Origin: Candidatus Eiseniibacteriota bacterium
GTDB taxonomy: Bacteria > JAFGKV01
Assembly (NCBI GenBank): GCA_025453925.1
Contig: JALOPK010000002.1
Location: forward strand, 1-35,414
Length of the DNA: 35,414 nucleotides
Direction of reading: 5' to 3'
Part shown: one piece after another, positions 21,586 to 34,579 of the stretch
Position numbering within the stretch: position 1 is the stretch's first letter
How the letters are laid out: each line of letters starts with the position of its first letter
Program-made: the position numbers and the translations under genes
The notes under the pieces: generated by a model
Database searches by the model: none
What the model saw: the letters and a program-made list of their open reading frames with translations, nothing else
What the model was told of the DNA's origin: nothing

Positions 21586-23466
21586 TCAGCGGGCGTTGCG
21601 GACGACGCGGAACCCGAGACGGTCATTCTGGAAGCCGGGGACGATGCCCAGACGGCTGGCCGACCTGCAGGCATCGGCCCGGGTGCGCCAGCTCCCGCCA
21701 CGCTGCACCCGCAGCGTGCCCTGCGGCGGGCCTAAGGGGTTCGACACTGCCTCTGAGGGATACTCGCCGTACCAGTCCCCGCACCACTCGGCGACATTGC
21801 CGTTCATGTCGAACAGGCCCCAGGCATTGGCAGTAGTTGTGGCAACCTCATGGGTGTGGCTGCCCGCATTATCGGTGAACCAGCAGTGCTTCCCCGACAT
21901 GCTTGCGCCCCAGGGGTACGCTGTGGTCGTGCCTGCGCGGCATGCATACTCCCACTCGGCCTCGGTAGGCAGCCGGTAGCCCGGCGCCGATTGGTCCCAC
22001 CATGCCTCCCCCGATTCGACGGGCGGGTTTCCGCCGAACGCCGATGTCAACGCCTTGTCTGCGTAGTAGCAGGGTTTCAACCCTTCCTGCTGCGAACGCC
22101 GGTTGCAGTAGATGACCGCATCGAACCAGGTTACCTGTTCAACCGGACGGTTCGGCCCGCGCCACCGCGAGGGGCTCTTCCCCAGGACCGCCTCCCACTG
22201 GGCAACGGTGACCTCCGTCGCCTGCATGAAGAAGGGCGCAGGCAGCGTCACCTCATGGGAGGCTTCTCCTCCATCACGACCCGCCTCCATGGGCGGTGAT
22301 CCCATGGTGAACGTTCCCGCGGGAACCGCGACGAAGCCCTCTGGCGCCTCGAAGGGGATCGGCGCGGCCAGGCCATCGTCATAGACAAACTCCACCTCCT
22401 GCTGCAGCCATTCAGATTCCGATCCGCCATCGTCGATCGCTTGCGCATAGATGCGCTGGCGACCCTCGGCGACCTCGAACGAGAAGGTCCCCGCCGCCTG
22501 TTCGACTGCAGCCTGCGGGTCATTCACCGCACACCGGTAATGGGCGATCGCGCCATCGTCAGTGCCCTCCAGGAGCACGGTGAGAGTGGTTCCGCGTACA
22601 CGCTCACCGCTCACTGGCGACACGATGCGGACCGACGGAGGCGCATCGATCACCCGGAACTCGAACCGGTGGGGCTCGGAGTAGTTACCATCGCAGTCCT
22701 TGGCCTGGACCTGGAACACATGACTCCCGCGGGGCACTTCCGCGAGTTCCGCGCGTGCGCGTTTAGTCACCACCGGCTCTCCATCGTCCAACTGGTACCG
22801 GTACTCCTCAATGCAGCGCTCGTCGTTGCCGAGGAAGACAAAGGTCGCAAGGCGCGCATCCTTGACGTTCATGACGCCCTTGGGAGTCTCGAGAAGACGA
22901 ACGGTCGGGGGTGCCCCCGTGGCGGTCGGCACGGGCAAAGGCGCGACATAGGGGCGATCCGGCTCGGCCTGCGGCACGATTGGTGGCGCTATGGGCACGG
23001 GTTTCTCCGACGTACACCCCAGCTCCCGCGCCGCATCAGGCATGATCTTGAACAAGTCCTTCAGCCTCTGCCCCATGCGGTTCACCGAACACCTCACCTG
23101 GGCGGTCTGCACATCCACGAGCTCGGCGGTCATGAAGTAGTCGCCCTCGACCTGAGAGAGCGAACCGAGCACGATCCAACGGACATTGAGGATCTCGCCC
23201 ATCTGGATGGCGCACTCGGTCTCGGTGCAGTCGATGAGCTGCACCTGCTGCTCCTTGAGGATGGTCTCCATGTTCTTTCGATCGACCACCACGAAGTTCC
23301 GCTGGTTCACGAACTCGCTGCGCAACCGCTCCGAGATGATGTCGGCCTCCTCCGGTTTCACCAGATTGGCCTTGAAGTGCAACACGGCTAGACGTCGTTC
23401 GAGATCGCCGGCCGTGGCGGACGCTGCGATCATCGTTGCCACGCACACAGTCGCCGACCAGCGCAT
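21586..23466 (-). CDS. Exported CsgG-like / FGE-fold (SUMF1-type) fusion protein
   Basis: The protein has 626 residues, with AAGGAG five bases before the ATG. It has a signal peptide (MRWSATVCVATMIAASATAG). Residues about 25-170 resemble the CsgG/LpoB-type domain (LAVLHFKANLV, then VVVDRKNMETILKEQ and GEILNVRWIVLGSLSQVEG). A Pro-rich linker and two Ig-like beta domains follow (about 210-365). The last 250 residues are an FGE-sulfatase fold: AVPAGTFTMGSPP, YRLPTEAEWEYACRAGT, FDMNGNVAEWCGDW, RGGSWRTRADACRSASR. In true FGE the penultimate motif carries two active-site Cys; here the first is Thr, so catalysis is doubtful. It ends the five-gene operon. No sulfatase is seen nearby. Confidence 0.88.
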   Translation of the reverse strand: MRWSATVCVATMIAASATAGDLERRLAVLHFKANLVKPEEADIISERLRSEFVNQRNFVVVDRKNMETILKEQQVQLIDCTETECAIQMGEILNVRWIVLGSLSQVEGDYFMTAELVDVQTAQVRCSVNRMGQRLKDLFKIMPDAARELGCTSEKPVPIAPPIVPQAEPDRPYVAPLPVPTATGAPPTVRLLETPKGVMNVKDARLATFVFLGNDERCIEEYRYQLDDGEPVVTKRARAELAEVPRGSHVFQVQAKDCDGNYSEPHRFEFRVIDAPPSVRIVSPVSGERVRGTTLTVLLEGTDDGAIAHYRCAVNDPQAAVEQAAGTFSFEVAEGRQRIYAQAIDDGGSESEWLQQEVEFVYDDGLAAPIPFEAPEGFVAVPAGTFTMGSPPMEAGRDGGEASHEVTLPAPFFMQATEVTVAQWEAVLGKSPSRWRGPNRPVEQVTWFDAVIYCNRRSQQEGLKPCYYADKALTSAFGGNPPVESGEAWWDQSAPGYRLPTEAEWEYACRAGTTTAYPWGASMSGKHCWFTDNAGSHTHEVATTTANAWGLFDMNGNVAEWCGDWYGEYPSEAVSNPLGPPQGTLRVQRGGSWRTRADACRSASRLGIVPGFQNDRLGFRVVRNAR

Positions 23467-23533
23467 ACTCGCTCCTTTCAGTGGGGCAGAACAGGCATCA
23501 CGTGCGGGCCGACCCTTCGCTCCCTGCGTGCGG

Positions 23534-25630
23534 TCAAGGGGCGCTCTCCGTGAGGTAGTTCCGGGGAGTGATCGTGCCGTTCTGCGACAGATCGAACACG
23601 TACCACCATAGTCCGGTCCCCGATTGGGGCACGTCCCAGCTCGCGATCACACCGGTGCCTGAGTAGACCACCACCCGTGCGTTGGACTGGGTGATCGGGG
23701 TCTCGTCGCTCGAGTACTTGAGGACCGCGTACTTACAGTCAGCGATAAGCTGATAGATGGTGATCGTCTCGGGACCCTCTCCATCAGTATCGTCGCGGTC
23801 GAGGTAGGCGTAGGGCTCCGAAGTCTCGCTGCCGCGTGAGCCAAACGGATAGTAGATGTGATACTGATCACCGACCCACATATGGCTGTCGAGATCGCGG
23901 GGGCTCGTGCCCCATGACATGACGATGCGATACTGACCCTCCGCCAGTTGCCGGCTGAGCACGAAGTTGGCCACCGCCGACTGACCGGCGAGGACGACAT
24001 CCTTGTTCTCCGTGATGTACCCGGACCGGGATGCCGTCAGGTCGTAGGCCCCGTCCAGGAGCGCGGGGAATTCATACCGTCCGTCCTGACCAGTCGTTGT
24101 TGACCGTGTCATCGGTCCCGCAAGATCGAGTCGCACATCAGCAAGCGCCGAACCCGTCTGTGCATCGGTCACCAGCCCCGATATGCCGACGGATGTCGCC
24201 ACCACGCTCACCACGGCAGTCGGTTCGTCAGGATCATTGCTCAGAATGACGATGGTTCCTGAAGAGGTGTCGAGATCGGTGCCGAATTGGGCGGTCGCAT
24301 GCAGCTCCTGAGTCGCGCCCGGCGCGAGCGTGAAGGATGCAGGACTCACCGACAGCCACGTGAGGTCGTCAGCCACAGTACTCACGTTCAAGATCAGGTT
24401 CCCGATGTTGCGCACGGTGAGTGTCCCTGTCACGCTCTCACCGGGGGTGAACGGGAAGGAGAGTGTCCGCCGTGAGACGTCGATGTTGGGCCACACCTGC
24501 ACTCCGGAGCCGGAGCGAACGGGCCGGATGCCGCTGAACGATGTCGGCATTCCCGGTTCGAGGCCGGTGCGGGATGCCGAGCGGCAGGCGAAGTCGGGGA
24601 AGGCGTATGCCCCCCCGCGGATGACCCGCCACGTGCCGGTTGTCGGCCCGCGGGGGTTGGCGGACGGCGATACGGCGTAGTAGTCGGGATCGAACCAGTC
24701 ATTGCACCATTCGCTCGCATTCCCACTCATGTCATGGAAGCTCCACCCGTTGGGCTCCCGGGTGCCCCCATCGTGCGTCGTATTGCCCGAGTTCCCCGCG
24801 TGCCAGCAGAAGCGATCATCCATAGTCTCGCCCCAGTAGAACTCAGAGTTGGAGCCGGCGCGACAGGCATACTCCCACTCAGCTTCAGTGGGCAGCCGGT
24901 ACCCCGACGCATCCCAGTTCATCCCCACGGTGGGCATCTGCGCCGCCAGATCCGCAGCGTCGTAGAAGGGGACATACCCCTCCCGCAGGCTCAATGCGTT
25001 GCAGAATGCTGCCGCCAGAAACCAGCTCACGGCCTCCACTGGCCGGTCTGCTCCCGGGAATACCGAAGGGTTCTCCCCTGTGACGGTCACGTACTGCTGC
25101 TGTCGCACTTCGTTGCGGGACATCGAGAACGAGTTCACGGTCACCGTATGCACGGGCCGCTCTACACCGTCGCCTACCTGGGGCGACCCCATTTGGAATG
25201 TCCCACCCGGAACCGCCACCATGTCAAGAACCGCACCCGCCCGCGTCATCCGCACGGTTGCGGTCTGCGTCGCGCCCAGCATGACCATCACGGTGGTCTC
25301 TCCCCAACTGGAGAGCAGCCCCCCACGAAACCCCTCGACGCGGATGCGAAGCTGGCCGACCGGCACTTCAAGCTCCAGCCGGCCCCGGGCGCCTCCCTCA
25401 AGGATTTCCATGGCGCGTCGGACCACGAGATCAGGGCCCTGAAACACCATGACGTATGCGCTGTCCACCAGAGAAGGGCTCGCCATGCCGTTGCCGGGGC
25501 CCTCCCACTCCAGTTGGAGGATGAGCTGCGCGGTCTGCGGTGTGATGAGGTCCTGCTGGCAGGAGAGCCCCGCGAGACACACGAGCGGAAGCGCCACCCG
25601 GCCCAGGAACCAGTTCCGGCTTTCTTTCAT
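23534..25630 (-). CDS. FGE-fold lipoprotein with choice-of-anchor, carboxypeptidase-like and DUF2135-like domains
   Basis: The ORF opens at 25825 within the preceding gene; the ATG at 25630 (MKESRNWFLGR...) has AGGAGG nine bases upstream and gives 698 residues. ATG 25636 is possible. The N-terminus looks like a lipoprotein signal ending at LAGLSC, an imperfect lipobox. Domains in order: a beta domain (30-140), an FGE fold (about 145-375, VAVPGGTFQMGSP, YRLPTEAEWEYACRAGS, GGAYAFPDFACRSASR, again with the first catalytic Cys missing), an Ig-like abnormal-spindle/choice-of-anchor-D-type domain (VRNIGNLILNVSTV), a carboxypeptidase-regulatory-like domain (GLVTDAQTGSALADVRLDL), and a DUF2135-like tail (SWGTSPRDLDSHMWV). 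It is probably surface or periplasmic. Confidence 0.88.
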   Translation of the reverse strand: MKESRNWFLGRVALPLVCLAGLSCQQDLITPQTAQLILQLEWEGPGNGMASPSLVDSAYVMVFQGPDLVVRRAMEILEGGARGRLELEVPVGQLRIRVEGFRGGLLSSWGETTVMVMLGATQTATVRMTRAGAVLDMVAVPGGTFQMGSPQVGDGVERPVHTVTVNSFSMSRNEVRQQQYVTVTGENPSVFPGADRPVEAVSWFLAAAFCNALSLREGYVPFYDAADLAAQMPTVGMNWDASGYRLPTEAEWEYACRAGSNSEFYWGETMDDRFCWHAGNSGNTTHDGGTREPNGWSFHDMSGNASEWCNDWFDPDYYAVSPSANPRGPTTGTWRVIRGGAYAFPDFACRSASRTGLEPGMPTSFSGIRPVRSGSGVQVWPNIDVSRRTLSFPFTPGESVTGTLTVRNIGNLILNVSTVADDLTWLSVSPASFTLAPGATQELHATAQFGTDLDTSSGTIVILSNDPDEPTAVVSVVATSVGISGLVTDAQTGSALADVRLDLAGPMTRSTTTGQDGRYEFPALLDGAYDLTASRSGYITENKDVVLAGQSAVANFVLSRQLAEGQYRIVMSWGTSPRDLDSHMWVGDQYHIYYPFGSRGSETSEPYAYLDRDDTDGEGPETITIYQLIADCKYAVLKYSSDETPITQSNARVVVYSGTGVIASWDVPQSGTGLWWYVFDLSQNGTITPRNYLTESAP

Positions 25631-25643
25631 GGTCATCCCCCTC

Positions 25644-26747
25644 CTACCACGTGCGCGCCAGGACGGAACGAACCTCAAGGCCGCTGATATCGGTCTCTCC
25701 GGACGTGGTCCATGCGGTGCCGGAAAGAGTTCCGCCGTCGATCGTGAGAGTGGTCTGCCTGCCCAACCTGAGCCGGGGCCCGATCGAGGCGCCGAACACC
25801 CGGCCTCCTCCGGATCCATACCCATTGTTCCCCTCGATTCTTAGGAAGCCGGTTGCCTCCGCCTTGAGCCAAGGGGCGATCACATACCCTACCCGAAGCC
25901 GGAGCGCACCCTCCGGGCCAAAGGAATTCGCATCTTCGTCCACCAGGCCCGCATCGCTGTCTGCCTTGCCGGCAGCCCGGAACCGCGCCCACATGCGTAC
26001 CTCAACCGGATCGAACAAGCGGGGATAGATCGTCAGCAGACCCCGGATATCGGTCCGCGGCCCAAGTCTGCGCAGCTCATCGCCTTCCCAGAGGTCGCTC
26101 CCGTACACCACCACTGCCACGTCGGTCTTGAGCAGTGCAGGTGCGCTCCCCACCGAAACGCGGCGATAGAGACCCGCCGTGAACACCAGTTCCTCTCCCG
26201 GATCCAGTTCCTCATCGCTGTCCTCATAGGGCTGATACCGCGCGCGGACCGAATAGCCGATCCCGCCCGCGAGAGTGTTCTCCCCCCACGGACGGGCCAC
26301 GGCAATGCCTGCGGTCGCACTGAATCCGTCGATCGGGCTATCCATGGCGAAGCCGAGCTCGTCGCTCGCCACCAACGCGGCGATGGGAAGTTCCTCCTGC
26401 GAGAGCCGCGTAGACGCCGTGGGGACGCTGCAGCCTGCGCGCAGCAAAAGCGTCTGATCCAACGCATACCACGAAGTCTTGAGCACGACATTCCCCACCG
26501 CGGTGAGCTCTTCGTCGGCGGCGTCAAGCACGGTCCGCCCAGGGTTGCTCTTGAGAGTGAGGCCAAACCGCGAACCAAGCGGCAGATCGAGTCTGATGGG
26601 AACGGCGATCTGAGAGACCTCCAGGGTCGTGGTGTCCGCGGATTCCCATTGCCGAAGGGCGAGGCCGAACTCGAGCCGTCCGTTTCGTTGCGCGGCGGCG
26701 GAGCACGCGAACGCCGCGGTCAGCATCACAACGAGTGTCCTTCGCAT
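25644..26747 (-). CDS. Outer-membrane beta-barrel protein
   Basis: The protein has 367 residues with a signal peptide (RRTLVVMLTAAFACSAAAQ) and GGAGGAGAC just before the ATG, overlapping the stop of the previous gene. The mature part consists of alternating amphipathic strands with short turns (ADTTTLEVSQIAVPIRLDLP, LEVRSVLARTW) and ends in an aromatic residue (Trp), the usual recognition signal for the barrel-assembly machinery. No family was recognised. Its stop overlaps the ribosome site of the following FGE-fold lipoprotein gene, so the two are translationally linked. A pore or anchor role in the five-gene set is inferred. Confidence 0.78.
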   Translation of the reverse strand: MRRTLVVMLTAAFACSAAAQRNGRLEFGLALRQWESADTTTLEVSQIAVPIRLDLPLGSRFGLTLKSNPGRTVLDAADEELTAVGNVVLKTSWYALDQTLLLRAGCSVPTASTRLSQEELPIAALVASDELGFAMDSPIDGFSATAGIAVARPWGENTLAGGIGYSVRARYQPYEDSDEELDPGEELVFTAGLYRRVSVGSAPALLKTDVAVVVYGSDLWEGDELRRLGPRTDIRGLLTIYPRLFDPVEVRMWARFRAAGKADSDAGLVDEDANSFGPEGALRLRVGYVIAPWLKAEATGFLRIEGNNGYGSGGGRVFGASIGPRLRLGRQTTLTIDGGTLSGTAWTTSGETDISGLEVRSVLARTW

Positions 26748-26756
26748 CGTCTCCTC

Positions 26757-28220
26757 CTACGGGAAATCGATGTCGATCACAATGGTGGGGGGCCCTGCCT
26801 CCCCCCCGATGGAAGGCTCCCGCGAGTCCTCGCCCGGATCGACGCCTCCGGTGACCACGTCCGCCAGATCGTCGAGGAGATCGGAGGCCAGTTCCTCCTC
26901 CGTCGGGTTCGCACCGGGCCATTCCTCTTCGCCTTCCCTTGCACCCTCATCGACGACACCGGCTCCTTCGTCGCCAGGCCCCGCTTCCTCATCGGCTCCG
27001 CCGGGGCCTTCGTCGTCGGGTGCTGTTCCTTCACCACCTCCGCCTGCCCACCGTTCGCCCGTGCCTCCACCATCATCCCCGCGGCCGTGAGACGACCGCG
27101 CGAGGAACTCCTGTTCGAACTGACTGACATCATCGGCCACGCGGTCAGTCTCGGCGAGCTGCTGCACCTTGTCGGCAGCCTCCCTGAACTTCGGGTCAGC
27201 CTTCGATGCTGCTTGGTAGTGCGTATGGGCCTTGGGCCAATCGCCCGCGTCCTCGGCGGCGAGACCGCGGGAGAACTCCAGGAAAGCGAGCAGGTTCCTG
27301 GTGGGCCTTCGAGAGATCTCCTCTCGTTCGATCTCTGTGAGTTCGATGCCCAAGCGCGAAACCGCGTCAAAGACGATGCCCTTCTCCATATCAAACACGG
27401 CATCAAGCTTGCCACCCACGGGTCTCAGGTTGTCGAGCCGGCCCTGGACCACGTCGGCTACCGCGGACTCGATGTTCACCCCGCCGGGGAAATCCCGATA
27501 CACGCCGTTGAGCACTGTGCCGGCGCCTGCGATCCTTCCCATACGCAGTGCGGTGCGATCATCAACCAGGCCGCTGGCACCCAGGCCAATCTCTTCCAGG
27601 AGCGCCACGACACGCGATCTTTCCAGAACCTGCAACCTACGGACCATGGAAAGGTCGGTCGTGAGGAACTCGGCCAAGCCCCGCCCCAAGACGGCAAGCT
27701 CCGAAGACACGCCGACGTACCGGAAGGGAAAGACGCCGACCGTCAGCCGGGGGAGTGCCTTGGCACGGGATGACTCCTCCTTCACCAGCCGCCCCATCTC
27801 GGTGTGCAGTTGTTGTCGCAGTATGAACCGGATTCTCCCCCGGATCTTGCGCTGGGCGCTCCGGGAAGGGATGGCGGGATACGCCTGGTAGATCTTGACC
27901 GCGCCATCCAGGTCGCCCGCCCGCTCCCGCATCAGACCTCGATAGAGCACACCCTCGGCCGACCAGTACCCCAGGCTTTGAGCGTTGGTGAGCTTCGTCT
28001 CCGCATCTTGATGCCGGCCCGTCCGGTAGTACGCCTGTCCCAGGAGGTCGAGTACCTCGCCGTTGTTGGGGTTCTGCACCGCCAGCGCCTCCAGGATCGG
28101 AAGCGCCTCCGCGCCCTTGTCCTCTGCAACGAGAGACCGTGCCCGTCCGACGCCGCTTGACGCACATCCCAGCACGAGCGCGCACAATGGGATGCACGCC
28201 CACACCAGCAAACGGTGCAC
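26757..28220 (-). CDS. TPR and CsgG-like lipoprotein with acidic C-terminal tail
   Basis: The ORF opens at 28346, but its first 42 residues cover a simple repeat (NPKSEIRN). The GTG at 28220 follows GGAAGTGAG and begins a clean lipoprotein signal (VHRLLVWACIPLCALVLGC), giving 487 residues. TPR-like helices come next (about 25-110, VLDLLGQAYYRTGRHQDAE). A CsgG/TolB-N-like domain follows (about 155-300: VGVFPFRYVG, LTTDLSMVRRLQVLERSRV, GRIAGAGTVLNGVYR), then another TPR (AEDAGDWPKAHTHYQAAS). The last 110 residues are low-complexity Gly/Glu/Asp/Pro. CsgG-type domains form oligomeric outer-membrane pores or bind periplasmic partners. It is 9 bases before the barrel gene. Confidence 0.85.
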   Translation of the reverse strand: MHRLLVWACIPLCALVLGCASSGVGRARSLVAEDKGAEALPILEALAVQNPNNGEVLDLLGQAYYRTGRHQDAETKLTNAQSLGYWSAEGVLYRGLMRERAGDLDGAVKIYQAYPAIPSRSAQRKIRGRIRFILRQQLHTEMGRLVKEESSRAKALPRLTVGVFPFRYVGVSSELAVLGRGLAEFLTTDLSMVRRLQVLERSRVVALLEEIGLGASGLVDDRTALRMGRIAGAGTVLNGVYRDFPGGVNIESAVADVVQGRLDNLRPVGGKLDAVFDMEKGIVFDAVSRLGIELTEIEREEISRRPTRNLLAFLEFSRGLAAEDAGDWPKAHTHYQAASKADPKFREAADKVQQLAETDRVADDVSQFEQEFLARSSHGRGDDGGGTGERWAGGGGEGTAPDDEGPGGADEEAGPGDEGAGVVDEGAREGEEEWPGANPTEEELASDLLDDLADVVTGGVDPGEDSREPSIGGEAGPPTIVIDIDFP

Positions 28221-28287
28221 CTCACTTCCGATTGATCGCGGGCTGGGGGAAGCCGTCCGCCCTCCATTCGCGGTTCCCCTCCCTCCG

Positions 28288-28317
28288 TTTCGGATTTCGG
28301 ATTTCGGATTTCGGATT
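28288..28317. repeat. Four 7-base tandem repeats (TTTCGGA)
   Basis: TTTCGGA occurs four times in a row at 28288-28315, followed by TT. It lies between the genes at 28356 and 28220 and, read on the minus strand, gives the spurious peptide NPKSEIRN. It argues against the long ORF start of the lipoprotein gene. Length changes here would alter the spacing within the operon. Confidence 0.9.
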
Positions 28318-28355
28318 CCTCTGGTATCCGCCGGCTGCCGACTCATCTCATCTCC

Positions 28356-30125
28356 CTACCGTTCGATCCGCGCGCGAATCAGGCCGAGACTGCTTTCCTC
28401 AACGATCACTCTGAGGTTGCCGAACGGGACGCGATTGATCTCCCGGGCCAATTCTGAAGGATGCCCTTCGAATGAGATTTCGAACCGCGCCAGTTCCTTG
28501 TCACGTGAACGCGGGACCACCGTGAGCACGCCGTCAACGCTCTCCCTCACCACACGTTCGATCGTGGTGAGATCGGTCTGACTCCTCACCCCCGTGACCT
28601 CAAAGGCGACAATGCGCCGCCCGTACACTTCCTCGCGGGCGAGGCGCACCAGCTCACGTTCCAGCTCCGTGCCGACCTTCTTGCACATTTCCTGGATCGC
28701 TACCAGCCCCGACTGTACCGCCTGGGGATCGGCTCCGACGCCGCTGCCGCTGACCGTTCCAATAACCTGCCCATTGTCGGCGCGAAGGATCTGGAAGCTC
28801 CCCTCGGCGGTGCTGGAGCGGATGTTTTCGATCCCGTAGCTGCCGATCGCCCCTCCTCCCGAGAGCGCGACCCGCCCTATCACGAGCAGGTCACCACCCT
28901 GCGTGAGCACGTAGGCAGTGAGGTCCTCCGAAGGGAGGCCGGGGGACCGCGCCTGCAGAGTGCGGCGGTATTGGCCGACATCGATCACGCGGAAACCTCT
29001 ATCGGTGAGCATGCCCTGCAATCGCGTCTCTGAGTAGGTCGGCTCCCGCCCTCCACCCGGGATCCCGTACTCCGCGCCGGTGGCGTCTTCCTCCGCCACG
29101 ATCATGACCCGGGGGTGAGCCCATGCCGGGTGGAGCACGCCCAGGGCAATGAGATCGTCCTCCAGCACGCCCCTCGCCACCTGCGCGGCGATCTCCACGA
29201 TCACTGTTCCCGCGGAGTCCCGTTCGCCGGTGACCGTGAAATCGCGCACGTATTCCCGCGAACGGGGGAGCACGTCGTCGCGAATGGACGCTACGTGGAA
29301 TGAAAGGCTATCCTGGCCCATCAAACGACCTGTGGAGCGACGCACTGCCGCCCGAAGCGCATCATCCGTTGCGGCCTCCCGAGCCGCGTCCCGACCCGCG
29401 TCGGTATCGTGCCGGCCGGTGGCGCGCACCAGGCTCACTCGTGCTTCGGTCTGGATGCGGATCTCCATCCTGGCCAGAGCATCACGCGCGACCGAGAAGC
29501 CGGGATCGGTCTTCAGCGCCTCAGCGTACTCGCGCCGGGCCATGTCGAGGTCGCCGGCGTCCTCCAGGCGAATCCCCATGCCGTAGTGGGAGAACGCCGT
29601 CTCAGAGATCCCGGCGGCCGATGGCCTCTCCAGTTTCTTGCCGAGCCTGTCGGCGAACGCCTCTGCCAGCCTCCCGATGAGATCGAGCAGGTCGCCCATC
29701 TTGCCGGTCACTTGCTCCGCTTTGACGAGGCGGGTCGTCTCGGTCTCGACCATCCGCGCATCGATGCGCACCTTCTTGCCCATCACCATGAAGCTACCAA
29801 GCAGCAGATAGCGGGCTCCCACGATCCGCCCGATCCGGCCGGCCGTCTGGTCGTCAACCGCGCCGCTGGCCTGCAGACCGAGCTCCTCGGCAACCTGGCG
29901 GATCCGGGACCGCTCGACGATCTCCAAATCATGCACCTGGGAGAGCTGGGTCGCCAAGGCCGCAGAGAAACCCTGGCTCAACGGGTCGTAGGTCGTCCGA
30001 TCAGTGAGGCTGTTGTTGAGGAAGTCGACAACGGCGAGAGTCTGGGGAGTATCTGCGGCGGAGGCAGGCGCCTGCCATGCGGACAGCGCGGCAAGCGCAA
30101 GACAGGGAACGAATGGCCGGCGCAT
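28356..30125 (-). CDS. Exported CsgG/FlgT-like protein
   Basis: The ATG at 30125 has GGAGG five bases upstream and begins a signal peptide (RRPFVPCLALAALSAWQAPASA); the ORF track's start (30179) lacks one. The protein has 589 residues. Residues about 27-165 are CsgG/FlgO-like (TLAVVDFLNNSL, EIVERSRIRQVAEELGLQ, GRIVGARYLLLGSF). A TPR-like helical segment follows (about 180-225). Residues about 230-315 resemble the FlgT N-terminal domain (RATGRHDTDAGRDAAREAATDDALR). The C-terminal half carries two more alpha/beta domains, including a LPS-assembly or TolB-like middle domain. FlgO/FlgT are flagellar outer-ring proteins in Vibrio; no flagellar gene is present here. It is the first gene of the five-gene operon. 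Confidence 0.8.
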   Translation of the reverse strand: MRRPFVPCLALAALSAWQAPASAADTPQTLAVVDFLNNSLTDRTTYDPLSQGFSAALATQLSQVHDLEIVERSRIRQVAEELGLQASGAVDDQTAGRIGRIVGARYLLLGSFMVMGKKVRIDARMVETETTRLVKAEQVTGKMGDLLDLIGRLAEAFADRLGKKLERPSAAGISETAFSHYGMGIRLEDAGDLDMARREYAEALKTDPGFSVARDALARMEIRIQTEARVSLVRATGRHDTDAGRDAAREAATDDALRAAVRRSTGRLMGQDSLSFHVASIRDDVLPRSREYVRDFTVTGERDSAGTVIVEIAAQVARGVLEDDLIALGVLHPAWAHPRVMIVAEEDATGAEYGIPGGGREPTYSETRLQGMLTDRGFRVIDVGQYRRTLQARSPGLPSEDLTAYVLTQGGDLLVIGRVALSGGGAIGSYGIENIRSSTAEGSFQILRADNGQVIGTVSGSGVGADPQAVQSGLVAIQEMCKKVGTELERELVRLAREEVYGRRIVAFEVTGVRSQTDLTTIERVVRESVDGVLTVVPRSRDKELARFEISFEGHPSELAREINRVPFGNLRVIVEESSLGLIRARIER

Positions 30126-30313
30126 CTGCACCTCCCATGCACGGGAATTCTGATCTACCCCCGAGCGCCCCACATCCACGGACGATGGTTGAAGAAGACG
30201 TCCGCTCTCAGGGAAACAACATGGACACCGAGGCCCGGATCCGTCAAGCAGTCGACCACGGTCCCCCCGCGGTGCCCATCGGTCGGACCGCCAGTCCCGT
30301 CCGGCAGTACTGA

Positions 30314-30351
30314 ACTATAGGGAGGCGAGGAAGCTGTACCCATCAATGGGT
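30314..30351 (-). promoter_or_regulatory. Possible promoter with overlapping palindromic operator for the envelope operon
   Basis: On the minus strand TATAGT (30314-30319) makes a good -10 box; TGGGTA lies 17 bases upstream as a weak -35. That -35 overlaps a perfect 14-base palindrome, ACCCATCAATGGGT (ACCCAT and ATGGGT around CA, 30338-30351), which is the position expected for a repressor. It implies a leader of about 180 bases before the start at 30125. Confidence 0.3.
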
Positions 30352-30606
30352 GGGAGTCATCGGGCTTGGGCAGCAGTGGCGCGACATGGGCCACACTGCG
30401 CGTTCCGGAGACGACTACGGCAGCGAGGGACACCGACCGTGGTGAGTGCACCATCGCCATCAGGTCCAAGCGTGCGGCCCAACCAGGAGCTCTCGTGGCG
30501 GGAGCCCGCCGTGCCACGGCGTGGACCGACGCTCTTGGCCCTTTCCGGCTCATTCGGTCCGGAGGCGCACACGCCGTTCGACAGGGGCCCGCGCAACGCG
30601 TGACAG

Positions 30607-30658
30607 TTGCCCTGACCGGGTCGTGTTGTGTATGTTTGATGCCCGGCTCGAATCGAGC
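30607..30658 (+). promoter_or_regulatory. Possible promoter and palindrome upstream of the knot-family gene
   Basis: TTGCCC (30607-30612) and TATGTT (30631-30636) are 18 bases apart, a moderate sigma-70-like match. A short palindrome GCTCGAATCGAGC (30646-30658) follows at about the expected start of transcription. Support is by eye only. Confidence 0.28.
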
Positions 30659-30720
30659 GCATTCCAGGCGCCCGCTGACCGAGCCGGAACACGGCGACTA
30701 CTCACTCCGGAGGTCATCCG

Positions 30721-30996
30721 ATGCCCAAGCTATACCGAACTGACGTCCCATCCGAAGCTCATCTGAAGGTCTTCGTCACCGATGTCCGCCTGGACGCGGA
30801 CCTGGTTGTTTTCGAGACGAACGACCCCTGGGCCGCCACGGAAAGCGGCGTATGGTACTATACCGACATCAGGTCAGACGCCGACAAGATCGTGTGCTAC
30901 ACCGACATCCGGTCGGAGGCGGACGTGGTCGTGTACAAGACCGACTCGCAATGGGACACGGGTTGGATCAACAACAACAAGGCAGGGCTCCTGTAG
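30721..30996 (+). CDS. Small repeat protein, probable 7(1) septoil knot / DUF6150 family
   Basis: The protein has 91 residues, with GGAGG seven bases before the ATG. It has no signal peptide or membrane segment. It consists of repeating short beta units: VTDVRLDADLVVFET, YTDIRSDADKIVCYT, YTDIRSEADVVVYKT, preceded by a degenerate copy (SEAHLKVF). The pattern [V/Y]xD[V/I/Y][R/K]S[D/E/Q]ADxxV is what I know from DUF6150 proteins, described as very small 7(1)-knotted (septoil) proteins of unknown function. The C-terminus GWINNNKAGLL is also usual in shape (xGWxNxxKxxxL). Assignment is from memory of the repeat pattern, not from a search. A perfect inverted repeat begins 7 bases after the stop. 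Confidence 0.75.
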   Translation: MPKLYRTDVPSEAHLKVFVTDVRLDADLVVFETNDPWAATESGVWYYTDIRSDADKIVCYTDIRSEADVVVYKTDSQWDTGWINNNKAGLL

Positions 30997-31003
30997 ATCA
31001 TGC

Positions 31004-31077
31004 CCTCCTGCTCCTTTGCCGGCCGACGCATCATGCAACCCCGCGGCGCGGAGCGAATCCGGCAAAGGAGCAGGAGG
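31004..31077. repeat. Perfect 19-base inverted repeat with 36-base loop
   Basis: CCTCCTGCTCCTTTGCCGG (31004-31022) and its exact reverse complement CCGGCAAAGGAGCAGGAGG (31059-31077) flank a loop that holds a smaller GCATCATGC hairpin. It lies between the knot-family gene and the MscS gene, both on the plus strand. There is no T-run after it, so it is not a standard intrinsic terminator, though it could still stop or stabilise the upstream transcript. It also contains purine-rich AAAGGAGCAGGAGG 20 to 40 bases before the MscS start. Confidence 0.93.
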
Positions 31078-31110: not shown

Positions 31111-32052
31111 ATGAGTGGACTTCCATTGCTTCCCGGTCTCACCGGTTGGGCCTCGGTTCTGGACCACCAGAATCGGCTCCTGGCTTCGCTGCTTCTGGTG
31201 CTGCTGCTATGGCTGACCCGTTCCGTCATCCTGCGGGCGGTCCTCAAGCAAACCACCGAGCCCCGGACCCGCTATGCCTGGCAGAAAGGCTCAGGGTACG
31301 CAGTCGCCTCTCTGGCGGCCGTGTTGCTCGTCTTGCTGTGGGTGGAGAGCCTTCGTTCCATCGCCACCATGATCGGTATCCTGACTGCAGGGCTTGCTAT
31401 CGCGCTCAGGGATTTGCTTGTGAATCTTGCGGGCTGGCTGTTCATCATCTCGCGCCGACCGTTCGGACTGGGTGACAGGATACAGATCGGCTCCCACCGT
31501 GGCGATGTCATTGACATCAGACTGTTTCAGTTCACGCTGATGGAGATCGGCAACTGGGTCGACGCGGATCAGAGCACGGGCAGAATCATCCACGTTCCGA
31601 ATGGCATGGTCCTGACCACTCCACTGGCGAACTACAGCAGGGGTTTCCACTACGTCTGGAATGAGATGCCGGTCTTGATTACCTTCGAGAGCAACTGGCA
31701 GGCGGCCAAGGGAATTCTCCTCCGAGTTGCGGAAGCCCACGCAGAGCATCTGACAGATGAGGCGCGACGCCGCGTGATCGAGGCGAGCAGTCGCTTCATG
31801 ATCTTCTACACGAAACTGACCCCTATCATTTATACATCAGTGAAAGACAGCGGCGTGCTGCTGACCATGCGCTACCTCACCGATCCGAAGCACCGCAGAG
31901 ACAGCGAGCACGCGATCTGGGAGAGCGTCCTCACCGAATTCGGCCAACGAAAAGACATTGAGTTCGCGTACCCCACTTGGCGTGCATATGTCCGCGGTGA
32001 GCCTCCACCGCAGGGAGAATCCCCGGCTTTCGTGCCTCCACCTCCCTCTTGA
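31111..32052 (+). CDS. MscS-family mechanosensitive channel
   Basis: The protein has 313 residues with three membrane helices near the N-terminus: about 22-42 (RLLASLLLVLLLWLTRSVIL), 60-78 (YAVASLAAVLLVLLWVESL), and the pore-lining TM3 (TMIGILTAGLAIALRDLLVNLAGW), followed by the conserved RPFGLGDRIQIG and the beta domain with VPNG. This is the minimal MscS plan, with three helices and an alpha/beta cytoplasmic vestibule. The channel would open under membrane tension and release solutes after osmotic downshock. The start ATG has no clear ribosome site, and the C-terminal tail is Pro-rich. The preceding inverted repeat may affect its expression. Confidence 0.92.
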   Translation: MSGLPLLPGLTGWASVLDHQNRLLASLLLVLLLWLTRSVILRAVLKQTTEPRTRYAWQKGSGYAVASLAAVLLVLLWVESLRSIATMIGILTAGLAIALRDLLVNLAGWLFIISRRPFGLGDRIQIGSHRGDVIDIRLFQFTLMEIGNWVDADQSTGRIIHVPNGMVLTTPLANYSRGFHYVWNEMPVLITFESNWQAAKGILLRVAEAHAEHLTDEARRRVIEASSRFMIFYTKLTPIIYTSVKDSGVLLTMRYLTDPKHRRDSEHAIWESVLTEFGQRKDIEFAYPTWRAYVRGEPPPQGESPAFVPPPPS

Positions 32053-32221: not shown

Positions 32222-34579
32222 TTACCGATACATGCTCGTGATGACGCGGCGGTACTTCTGCTGGATCACGCCTCGGCGTTTCTTCAAAGTGTGGGTCAGT
32301 TCGTCCCCGACCTTGAACTCATCGCGGATCAGCCTGAACTGCGATATTCGTTCAAAGGTCTTGAATCCGTTGGCGGGCGAGATCAGGCGCTTGACCTCGT
32401 CCTGGAACAGCTCGATGACCTTCCGGTCGCCGATCATCTCGTCGGGGTCTTGTGGAAGCCCCTTCTCCTCGGCGACCTTGGTCAACGCATCGAAATCCGG
32501 GACCAAGAGCGTGGCCAGGGACTTCTGGTCTTGCCCCACGACGACGGCCTGGGAGATGAACGGGCTCTCCTCGATCTTTGCCTCTATGGGGTAGGGCTCG
32601 ACGTTTTCGCCGCCCAACAGAACGATGGTGTCCTTCGCCCTTCCGAGGAGTTGGATGTCTCCGTTCACGGAGAGACGCCCTATGTCGCCGGTGTTGAACC
32701 AGCCATCCTCGCTCAGCACCTCGCCGGTCGCTTCGGGGTTCTTGTGATACCCCTGCATGACCTGCGGCCCCTTGACGAATACCAGGCCCTTATGGCCCTT
32801 GAGCACCTGTTTCGAAGGGTTCTCCAGACTTCGGATTTCGACCTTGGTGAAGGGGATGGGCGGACCGACCGTGCGGAACATCGACTTGCGGGGGAGCCGG
32901 GCCGATACCACCGGTGACGTCTCGGTGAGGCCGTAGCCCTCGACGATCCTCAGACCGACGGTGTCGAAGAACTCGTCGACATGCTGGGGTAGCGCGCCGC
33001 CTCCCGAGATGGGGAGGATCAGGCGGCCTCCCATCTTCTGGCGAATCGCCGAGAAGATCCTGTGATCGGCGAAGTGGTAGATCGGCGCCAGCAGCGTCAC
33101 GACGAGAACCGCCTTTGCGCGTCGAAGGAACTCCTCCCATGGGAGTGACGTCGCGAATCGGGGCTCTCTCCCTTCGATGACCCGCCAGGAGCGGGAATAC
33201 CACATGGAGAGCTTGAGCAGTGTGAAGAACAGCTTCTGTTTGGATGGTGGCTGCTGCCGCACATTGTTGAGAATACCCTTGTGCAGCCCCTCCCAGACTC
33301 TGGGCACGCTGGCGATATAGTGCGGACGCAGAAGCTCGAAGTCGCGCAACAGCACCTGGCGCAGGGGTTTCGAGTAGGCCAGACTGACGCCGCTGGCGAG
33401 GATGATGTACTCCACGGTCCGCTCGAACACGTGCCAGGGCGGAAGGATCGACATGAAGATCGTGCCGGGCTTGATTCCGAAGTAGTCGGGAAGCACGTCG
33501 ACATTGTGCATGACGTTGGCGTGGGTGAGTACTACGCCTTTCGGTACCCCCGTCGTGCCGGACGTGTAGATGATGGTCGCCACGTCGGTCGGCTTCACCT
33601 CCGCCGCGTAGTCAAGGAACTTGCGGGGGCTCACTGCGCGTTCTTTGCGGCCTTTCTTCAAGAGCAGATCCAGTGGTATGGCATGCTCGGGGCCGCCGTG
33701 GTACTCTTCGTCGAGGACCACGATCGTCTTGAGTTCCGGAAGCTGGTCTCTGATCTTGAGGAGCTTGGAGAGGTCCGTCCCTTCCGGCAAGGCTTCTCCT
33801 CGCTCCAGCTCGCGGCTCAGCCTGGCCAGCCGGTCCAGGACTGCCGCGTACCGTCCCTTCGGTGAAGGAATGGCCTTCAAGGACCGGAGCACGTCGCGCA
33901 CTTCACCTTCAAAGTAACCCATCTCTGCCAAGGCCAGCGCCGCCTCTTGCTTGACTTCCGGGTCCTTGGACCCGAGGAGATCCACCAGCTTGTCGCGGGC
34001 GCCCGCCACTCGGTCGATGTCCCAGAGAGCCCTGGCCAGGGGGATGGCGAGCGCGGGATCCACCGTGGTATCGAAGAGGGCCTGCAAGGGGGGCAGGACC
34101 TTCTCGGGGTCGCCGTGGTGGCCCAAGATGTCGATGGCTGCAATCTTCACTTCCTTGGATCCGGCGGACCTGGCCAGGTTCTCCAGCGCTGCGTGGGCCT
34201 CGGCTTTGGAGTCCTCATCTTCGCTGCCGAGGAGGACTCTCGCGCACGCAAGCTGCCCTCGCTCGCTCGAGCGCAAGAGCTTCGACCTCAAGGCGGGCTC
34301 TGCCGACTTGCCGAGGGACTCGAGCTTCCTCATGGCGGTCCAGAGACCGGCTCCTTCGCCGGAGTCCGCGAGTCCGAGCGCGCTCTCGACCGCAGGGCCT
34401 ACACTGGAGGCTTCCGCCTCCGACTTGCCGGGAGATGAGTCCTGGCCCGGCTTCTCCTCCCGCGCAGGAGCGGATCCCAGGATGACCGGGAAGGCGAGGA
34501 CGATGGCGATGAAGGCGCGCATGGGCAAGACAAGTGATTCGAACGTTCCGGGAAGGAGCCAGGAAGTCCTTGGAAGCAT
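32222..34579 (-). CDS. Chimeric ORF: exported HEAT-repeat region fused to an N-terminally truncated acyl-CoA synthetase
   Basis: The ORF has 785 residues; ATG 34522 is an alternative start that leaves a cleaner signal peptide (MRAFIAIVLAFPVILGSAPA). Residues about 60-250 are HEAT-like helical repeats (SKEVKIAAIDILGHHGDPEKV, DPEVKQEAALALAEMGY). From about residue 268 (LSKLLKIRDQLPELKTIVVLD) the sequence is an AMP-forming long-chain acyl-CoA synthetase: YTSGTTGVPKG (phosphate loop), PPWHVFERTVEY, EGYGLTETSPV, GWFNTGDIG, LGRAKDTIVLLGGENVEP. The usual first 120-140 residues of such enzymes are absent. An exported domain joined to a cytosolic enzyme lacking its N-terminal part is unlikely to work as a synthetase. 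It may be a deletion fusion or an assembly join. Confidence 0.8.
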   Translation of the reverse strand: MLPRTSWLLPGTFESLVLPMRAFIAIVLAFPVILGSAPAREEKPGQDSSPGKSEAEASSVGPAVESALGLADSGEGAGLWTAMRKLESLGKSAEPALRSKLLRSSERGQLACARVLLGSEDEDSKAEAHAALENLARSAGSKEVKIAAIDILGHHGDPEKVLPPLQALFDTTVDPALAIPLARALWDIDRVAGARDKLVDLLGSKDPEVKQEAALALAEMGYFEGEVRDVLRSLKAIPSPKGRYAAVLDRLARLSRELERGEALPEGTDLSKLLKIRDQLPELKTIVVLDEEYHGGPEHAIPLDLLLKKGRKERAVSPRKFLDYAAEVKPTDVATIIYTSGTTGVPKGVVLTHANVMHNVDVLPDYFGIKPGTIFMSILPPWHVFERTVEYIILASGVSLAYSKPLRQVLLRDFELLRPHYIASVPRVWEGLHKGILNNVRQQPPSKQKLFFTLLKLSMWYSRSWRVIEGREPRFATSLPWEEFLRRAKAVLVVTLLAPIYHFADHRIFSAIRQKMGGRLILPISGGGALPQHVDEFFDTVGLRIVEGYGLTETSPVVSARLPRKSMFRTVGPPIPFTKVEIRSLENPSKQVLKGHKGLVFVKGPQVMQGYHKNPEATGEVLSEDGWFNTGDIGRLSVNGDIQLLGRAKDTIVLLGGENVEPYPIEAKIEESPFISQAVVVGQDQKSLATLLVPDFDALTKVAEEKGLPQDPDEMIGDRKVIELFQDEVKRLISPANGFKTFERISQFRLIRDEFKVGDELTHTLKKRRGVIQQKYRRVITSMYR

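Follow-up and report, generated by a model that had tools for sequence, protein, structure and literature searches.

A short gene of the DUF6150 family

The window (the whole 35,414-nt stretch of Candidatus Eiseniibacteriota DNA that was analysed) carries on its forward strand a small gene that begins with an ATG at position 30721 and ends with a TAG at position 30996. Its product of 91 residues (MPKLYRTDV...YYTDIRSDADKIVCYTDIRSEADVVVYKT...) has no signal peptide. A Shine-Dalgarno sequence, GGAGG, is located on the same strand at 30709–30713, 7 nt 5′ of the start codon, and GGGAGGG occupies the matching position in the congeneric genome G001. The source genome was assembled from a metagenome (3.9 Mb, 502 contigs, completeness 82%) and contains no second gene of this family.

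The open reading frame (ORF) is coding and represents a genuine gene. The product is 76% identical to its ortholog in G001, and over the 91 codons the two genes differ by 37 synonymous and 22 non-synonymous changes, with 16, 9 and 49 base differences at the first, second and third codon positions respectively. Rfam and tRNA searches gave no match. A chance ORF with repeat-like composition might be considered because the frame is short and lies in GC-rich DNA where other long ORFs overlap 30721–30996. However, this explanation is vanishingly improbable, being refuted by a family score far above the cut-off, by the constraint seen at the codon positions, and by the lack of repeat units in shuffled proteins.

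Assignment of the product to the family DUF6150 had been proposed in a preliminary description of this DNA, and the profile search bears it out. The protein matches Pfam PF19647 with 67.3 bits against a curated cut-off of 27, and the match is near full length, pairing residues 4–90 of 91 with profile positions 11–97 of 98. Searches of NCBIfam and PHROGs with the protein gave no match, and the Pfam entry states only 'unknown function'. The gene is thus a real member of an already known, uncharacterised family.

Repeat units and conserved residues

The same description had the product built of repeats, and this also holds. A 13-residue profile finds four units over threshold in the protein, whereas shuffled DUF6150 members contain on average 0.04 units per protein, so that the repeats are far above chance. 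These four are unit 1 (residues 4–16, LYRTDVPSEAHLK; positions 30730–30768, 9.6 bits), unit 2 (residues 17–29, VFVTDVRLDADLV; 30769–30807, 20.3 bits), unit 4 (residues 45–57, WYYTDIRSDADKI; 30853–30891, 31.1 bits) and unit 5 (residues 58–70, VCYTDIRSEADVV; 30892–30930, 23.3 bits), all on the forward strand. Two degenerate units, read by eye, complete the series on that strand at positions given by the family alignment: unit 3 (residues 30–42; 30808–30846), which falls below the repeat threshold and is followed by a short insert before Trp45, and unit 6 (residues 71–82; 30931–30966), which ends in a conserved Gly-Trp.

Across an alignment of 38 DUF6150 members the same layout recurs: units of 13 residues, six in number and of the type VYFVDYESQADLK, with a short insert separating unit 3 from unit 4. 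Fixed in this alignment are Ala at unit position 10, Asp27, Trp45 and Gly81-Trp82. The window protein retains Trp45 and Trp82 and departs from the family at two places, carrying His14 where 89% of members have Asp, and Thr80 in place of the unit 6 Ala that is likewise present in 89%. The strongly conserved residues all look structural. His, Cys, Lys, Arg and Glu each fail to reach 70% in any column of the 38-member alignment; this speaks, albeit not decisively, against enzymatic activity.

The number of units is not constant, and members with four, five and six are found. A four-unit member is encoded at L004:1447–1698, while its congener L019 has six; the shorter form may be a natural shortening or an assembly collapse of near-identical repeats. 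In another member (L056:985–1701, reverse strand), five units of the DUF6150 type are joined to a stretch of low complexity, a membrane segment and, at the C-terminal end, an SH3-like domain, although the match of this last part to bacterial SH3-like domains is weak (E 4e-5).

Distribution and leader peptides

Members of DUF6150 were found in 10 of 386 genomes sampled across bacteria. Two phyla were surveyed more closely: that of genome G260, which shares an identical DUF6150 gene with a Candidatus Coatesbacteria record, has the family in 8 of 14 genomes (7 over the cut-off), and that of the Marinilabiliales genome G400 has it in 20 of 396 (19 over the cut-off). No relatives were recovered in a plasmid search, and no DUF6150 gene was found in the family-mate G002. 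The distribution is therefore sparse yet wide, and the window gene adds a member without a leader from a poorly sampled phylum (three genomes in the set searched).

By a simple hydropathy rule applied to 64 members, a hydrophobic leader precedes the domain in 57. The window protein differs from this majority and belongs to the seven leaderless members (the others being L002, L005, L007, L009, L010 and L051). As it has no leader, it is presumably cytosolic. In a phylogenetic tree with few columns and many open forks, it falls together with L002, L005 and L051 (the last on a long branch); this leaderless quartet has support of 94/92, a value just under the tree's own star level. The second leaderless set (L007, L009 and L010) is separate and well supported.

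Exported members are also found on phage contigs. In IMG/VR, alignment-based scans revealed DUF6150 genes with a leader on contigs that range from 4 to 348 kb. Five of these viral contigs (L086:3357–3725, L118, L120, L123 and L140) share a gene order in which DUF6150 is followed by genes for an HD-domain protein of approximately 243 residues and for proteins of 234, approximately 390 and approximately 275 residues. In this conserved order DUF6150 looks like a resident phage gene and not stray cargo. The gene is also present in contigs of 344, 348 and 266 kb (L079:4959–5288, L080 and L078:4947–5255, respectively), which are possible jumbo phages; a DNA primase gene adjoins it in the first of these, and in two other viral contigs it is near T4-type DNA ligase genes (phrog_114). 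In a single case (L114:938–4769), DUF6150 is located directly 3′ of an McrB/McrC restriction pair, and this contig may be bacterial.

The abundance of exported DUF6150 genes in viral contigs raises the prospect that the window gene was recently acquired from a phage. We consider this highly improbable, since in the tree the window protein falls among bacterial sequences without leaders and not among viral ones, neither it nor its close group retrieved anything in viral scans, and the gene is surrounded by ordinary chromosomal genes.

Genomic context

A forward-strand hairpin with perfect 19-nt arms (31004–31022 and 31059–31077; folding z = −3.9) lies 3′ of the gene at 31004–31077, in agreement with the long hairpin noted previously. 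It has no T tract. In G001 a hairpin of different sequence is found at the matching place. This conservation of position suggests that the DUF6150 transcript ends here in both species, and we regard the window hairpin as its probable 3′ end, although the missing T tract counts against this.

The 5′ side had been described as a regulatory region of 600 bases. A gap of 541–595 bases does precede the gene, but a regulatory role gains nothing from our searches: no sigma-70-type promoter was matched in the gap, and nothing in 30027 to 30720 could be aligned in the sister species G001.

The hairpin is followed by a gene for an MscS-type mechanosensitive channel on the forward strand (31111–32052; PF00924, 49.7 bits), as the preliminary description had stated, with the suggestion that this context could help to assign a role. 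The window protein could accordingly be pictured as an accessory or regulator of the channel. In both species of the genus the two genes lie side by side in the same orientation and, as one weak point in its favour, G002 lacks DUF6150 and also lacks a close relative of the channel, having distant MscS proteins only. Such a role nevertheless appears quite unlikely. The adjacency is confined to the window and G001 and is absent from 17 other DUF6150 neighbourhoods, in a survey that used the window MscS sequence as query and would miss distant channels. Moreover, hairpins of differing sequence separate the two genes in both species, and most members of the family are exported or phage-encoded. 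The channel gene is probably a separate transcription unit outside any DUF6150 system, and the link looks accidental; the context thus does not serve as a clue to function. For comparison as an empty site, G002 carries the orthologous copy of a ligase gene found near the channel gene; there it sits on a contig of 4.6 kb, and the gene after it encodes an unrelated secretion-type ATPase.

That ligase is encoded in the window on the reverse strand (32222–34579) and is an AMP-binding enzyme with N-terminal HEAT repeats. In G001 and G002 the nearest copies align with it only beyond about residue 239–267, and the HEAT portion may accordingly be specific to the window genome or mark an assembly joint. 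On the other side of the DUF6150 gene, also on the reverse strand, is a CsgG/LpoB-like cluster (21586–30179) with TPR, FGE-sulfatase-like and Ig-like domains, in which several proteins in a row have related N-terminal CsgG domains.

Elsewhere, the neighbour of DUF6150 encodes an aminoacyl-tRNA editing protein in three genomes of one genus and an amino-acid kinase in G242. As neighbours differ between genera, guilt by association failed. Several other neighbourhoods have tandem copies. Three leader-bearing genes stand in a row at L067:7253–8317, and pairs are present in L068, L074 and L075.

Predicted fold

The preliminary description had also proposed that the protein forms a 7_1 (septoil) knot, a name that DUF6150 presumably bears in Pfam or InterPro. 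The reference for such a fold is Q9PR55 of Ureaplasma urealyticum, which to our knowledge has the most complex protein knot known. AlphaFold2 gave no usable model when run on the window protein together with five relatives (pLDDT 34.4). The model considered here is that of L088, a DUF6150 member from a viral contig with 36% identity to the window protein. Its alignment comprised 23 sequences, that of the window among them, and it reached a pLDDT of 94.6 and a pTM of 0.83, with all five models above 91. In the predicted chain every 13-residue unit contributes a short strand and then a tight helical turn, giving six strands in all.

When this model was compared with 350,542 PDB chains using Foldseek, the first four ranks were all Q9PR55 (8iwa A, 8iwa D, 8iwb F and 8jrm; E 0.015 to 0.24), of which the best value, 0.015, is not significant at 0.001. 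Superposition on Q9PR55 aligns 76–81 columns at 12–16% identity, with a TM-score of 0.27–0.36 and an rmsd of 10–11 Å, values that make the similarity local. Several weaker, later matches are trefoil-knotted SPOUT methyltransferases. A search of a viral fold library gave nothing below E 1.

Sequence comparisons establish no relationship to Q9PR55. It was not found in the PDB by DUF6150 sequences or profiles up to E 10 (queries: the window protein, L003, A2 and A3), which returned chance matches only. Likewise, PF19647 had no match over the cut-off among 320 genomes of Mycoplasmatales, the order containing Ureaplasma, in a sample centred on G245 (a code-4 mollicute by its own DNA) and assumed to include Ureaplasma.

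These comparisons show no sequence support, and only local support from predicted structure, for treating DUF6150 as the solved 7_1 knot. The part of the proposal that stands is the likeness of the L088 model to Q9PR55, whose local resemblance makes a 7_1 knot a sensible working hypothesis; poor global superposition and the lack of sequence kinship weigh on the other side. An appreciable possibility is that DUF6150 adopts a compact but unknotted short-coil beta fold, such as a tight solenoid or a related form, and that the Q9PR55 match reflects shared local strand-turn geometry. This would account for a global superposition that fails despite the number of aligned columns, and for the missing sequence relation; solenoid-like repeats are in any case known both knotted and unknotted (PMC13123833). 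Against it, the PDB matches of the L088 model contain no unknotted solenoid; they are headed by Q9PR55 and include the SPOUT trefoils. Since AlphaFold can produce knots that real chains could not tie (PMC10672856), even a knotted DUF6150 model would need experiment.

Discussion

Our favoured view, drawn from sequence features and the model of a relative, is that the window gene encodes a compact, probably entangled, non-enzymatic and cytosolic protein. The gene would be translated from its own ribosome-binding site on what is probably its own transcript, ending at the hairpin. The strands of the product would wind about each other as in a two-strand torus knot of the Q9PR55 kind, and the protein may then serve in the cytosol as a very compact binding or scaffold module that resists unfolding and degradation. 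As every strongly conserved residue looks structural, it may work without catalysis, a weak argument that rests on the absence of catalytic residues. Taken as a whole, the picture of a leaderless, cytosolic, non-catalytic protein wound like Q9PR55 and probably made from its own transcript is held tentatively, at somewhat below an even chance.

A broader and more doubtful idea is that DUF6150 constitutes a natural series of torus knots, in which the number of 13-residue units would set the crossing number. The series would include phage-encoded, Sec-exported members that tie the knot after crossing the membrane, together with cytosolic ones such as that of the window. If the fold is knotted, the family offers a wealth of natural sequences in which the self-tying of small complex knots could be studied, with useful contrasts in unit number, between exported and cytosolic forms, and in the phage versions. 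More interesting as leads are the members found in phages and the differences in unit number.

Three known systems invite comparison. The tail-fibre repeats of cyanophage S-RIM14, the one resemblance found in phage records, contain a look-alike motif, YTDxRxxA (tblastn E 7e-4). However, they are part of a phage protein of 2,228 residues, have another unit spacing (TEGTNLYYTDARADAR) and lack the DUF6150 Trp and Gly positions, and we take the resemblance as convergent. The Knotted Solenoid proteins (3_1) provide a bacterial short-repeat beta architecture that can be knotted; they are known to us from the published work (PMC13123833) and were not recovered in the PDB fold search with L088. The third system is Q9PR55 (PDB 8IWA, 8IWB and 8JRM), whose 7_1 knot was predicted by AlphaFold in a survey that also yielded its 5_1 homologue P73136 (PMC9278004) and was confirmed by crystallography (PMC13352647, PMC11223836). 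DUF6150 has no sequence or profile match to Q9PR55 and superposes on it only locally, but with 89 residues Q9PR55 is similar in length to the window protein, and it provides the best four PDB matches to the confident DUF6150 model.
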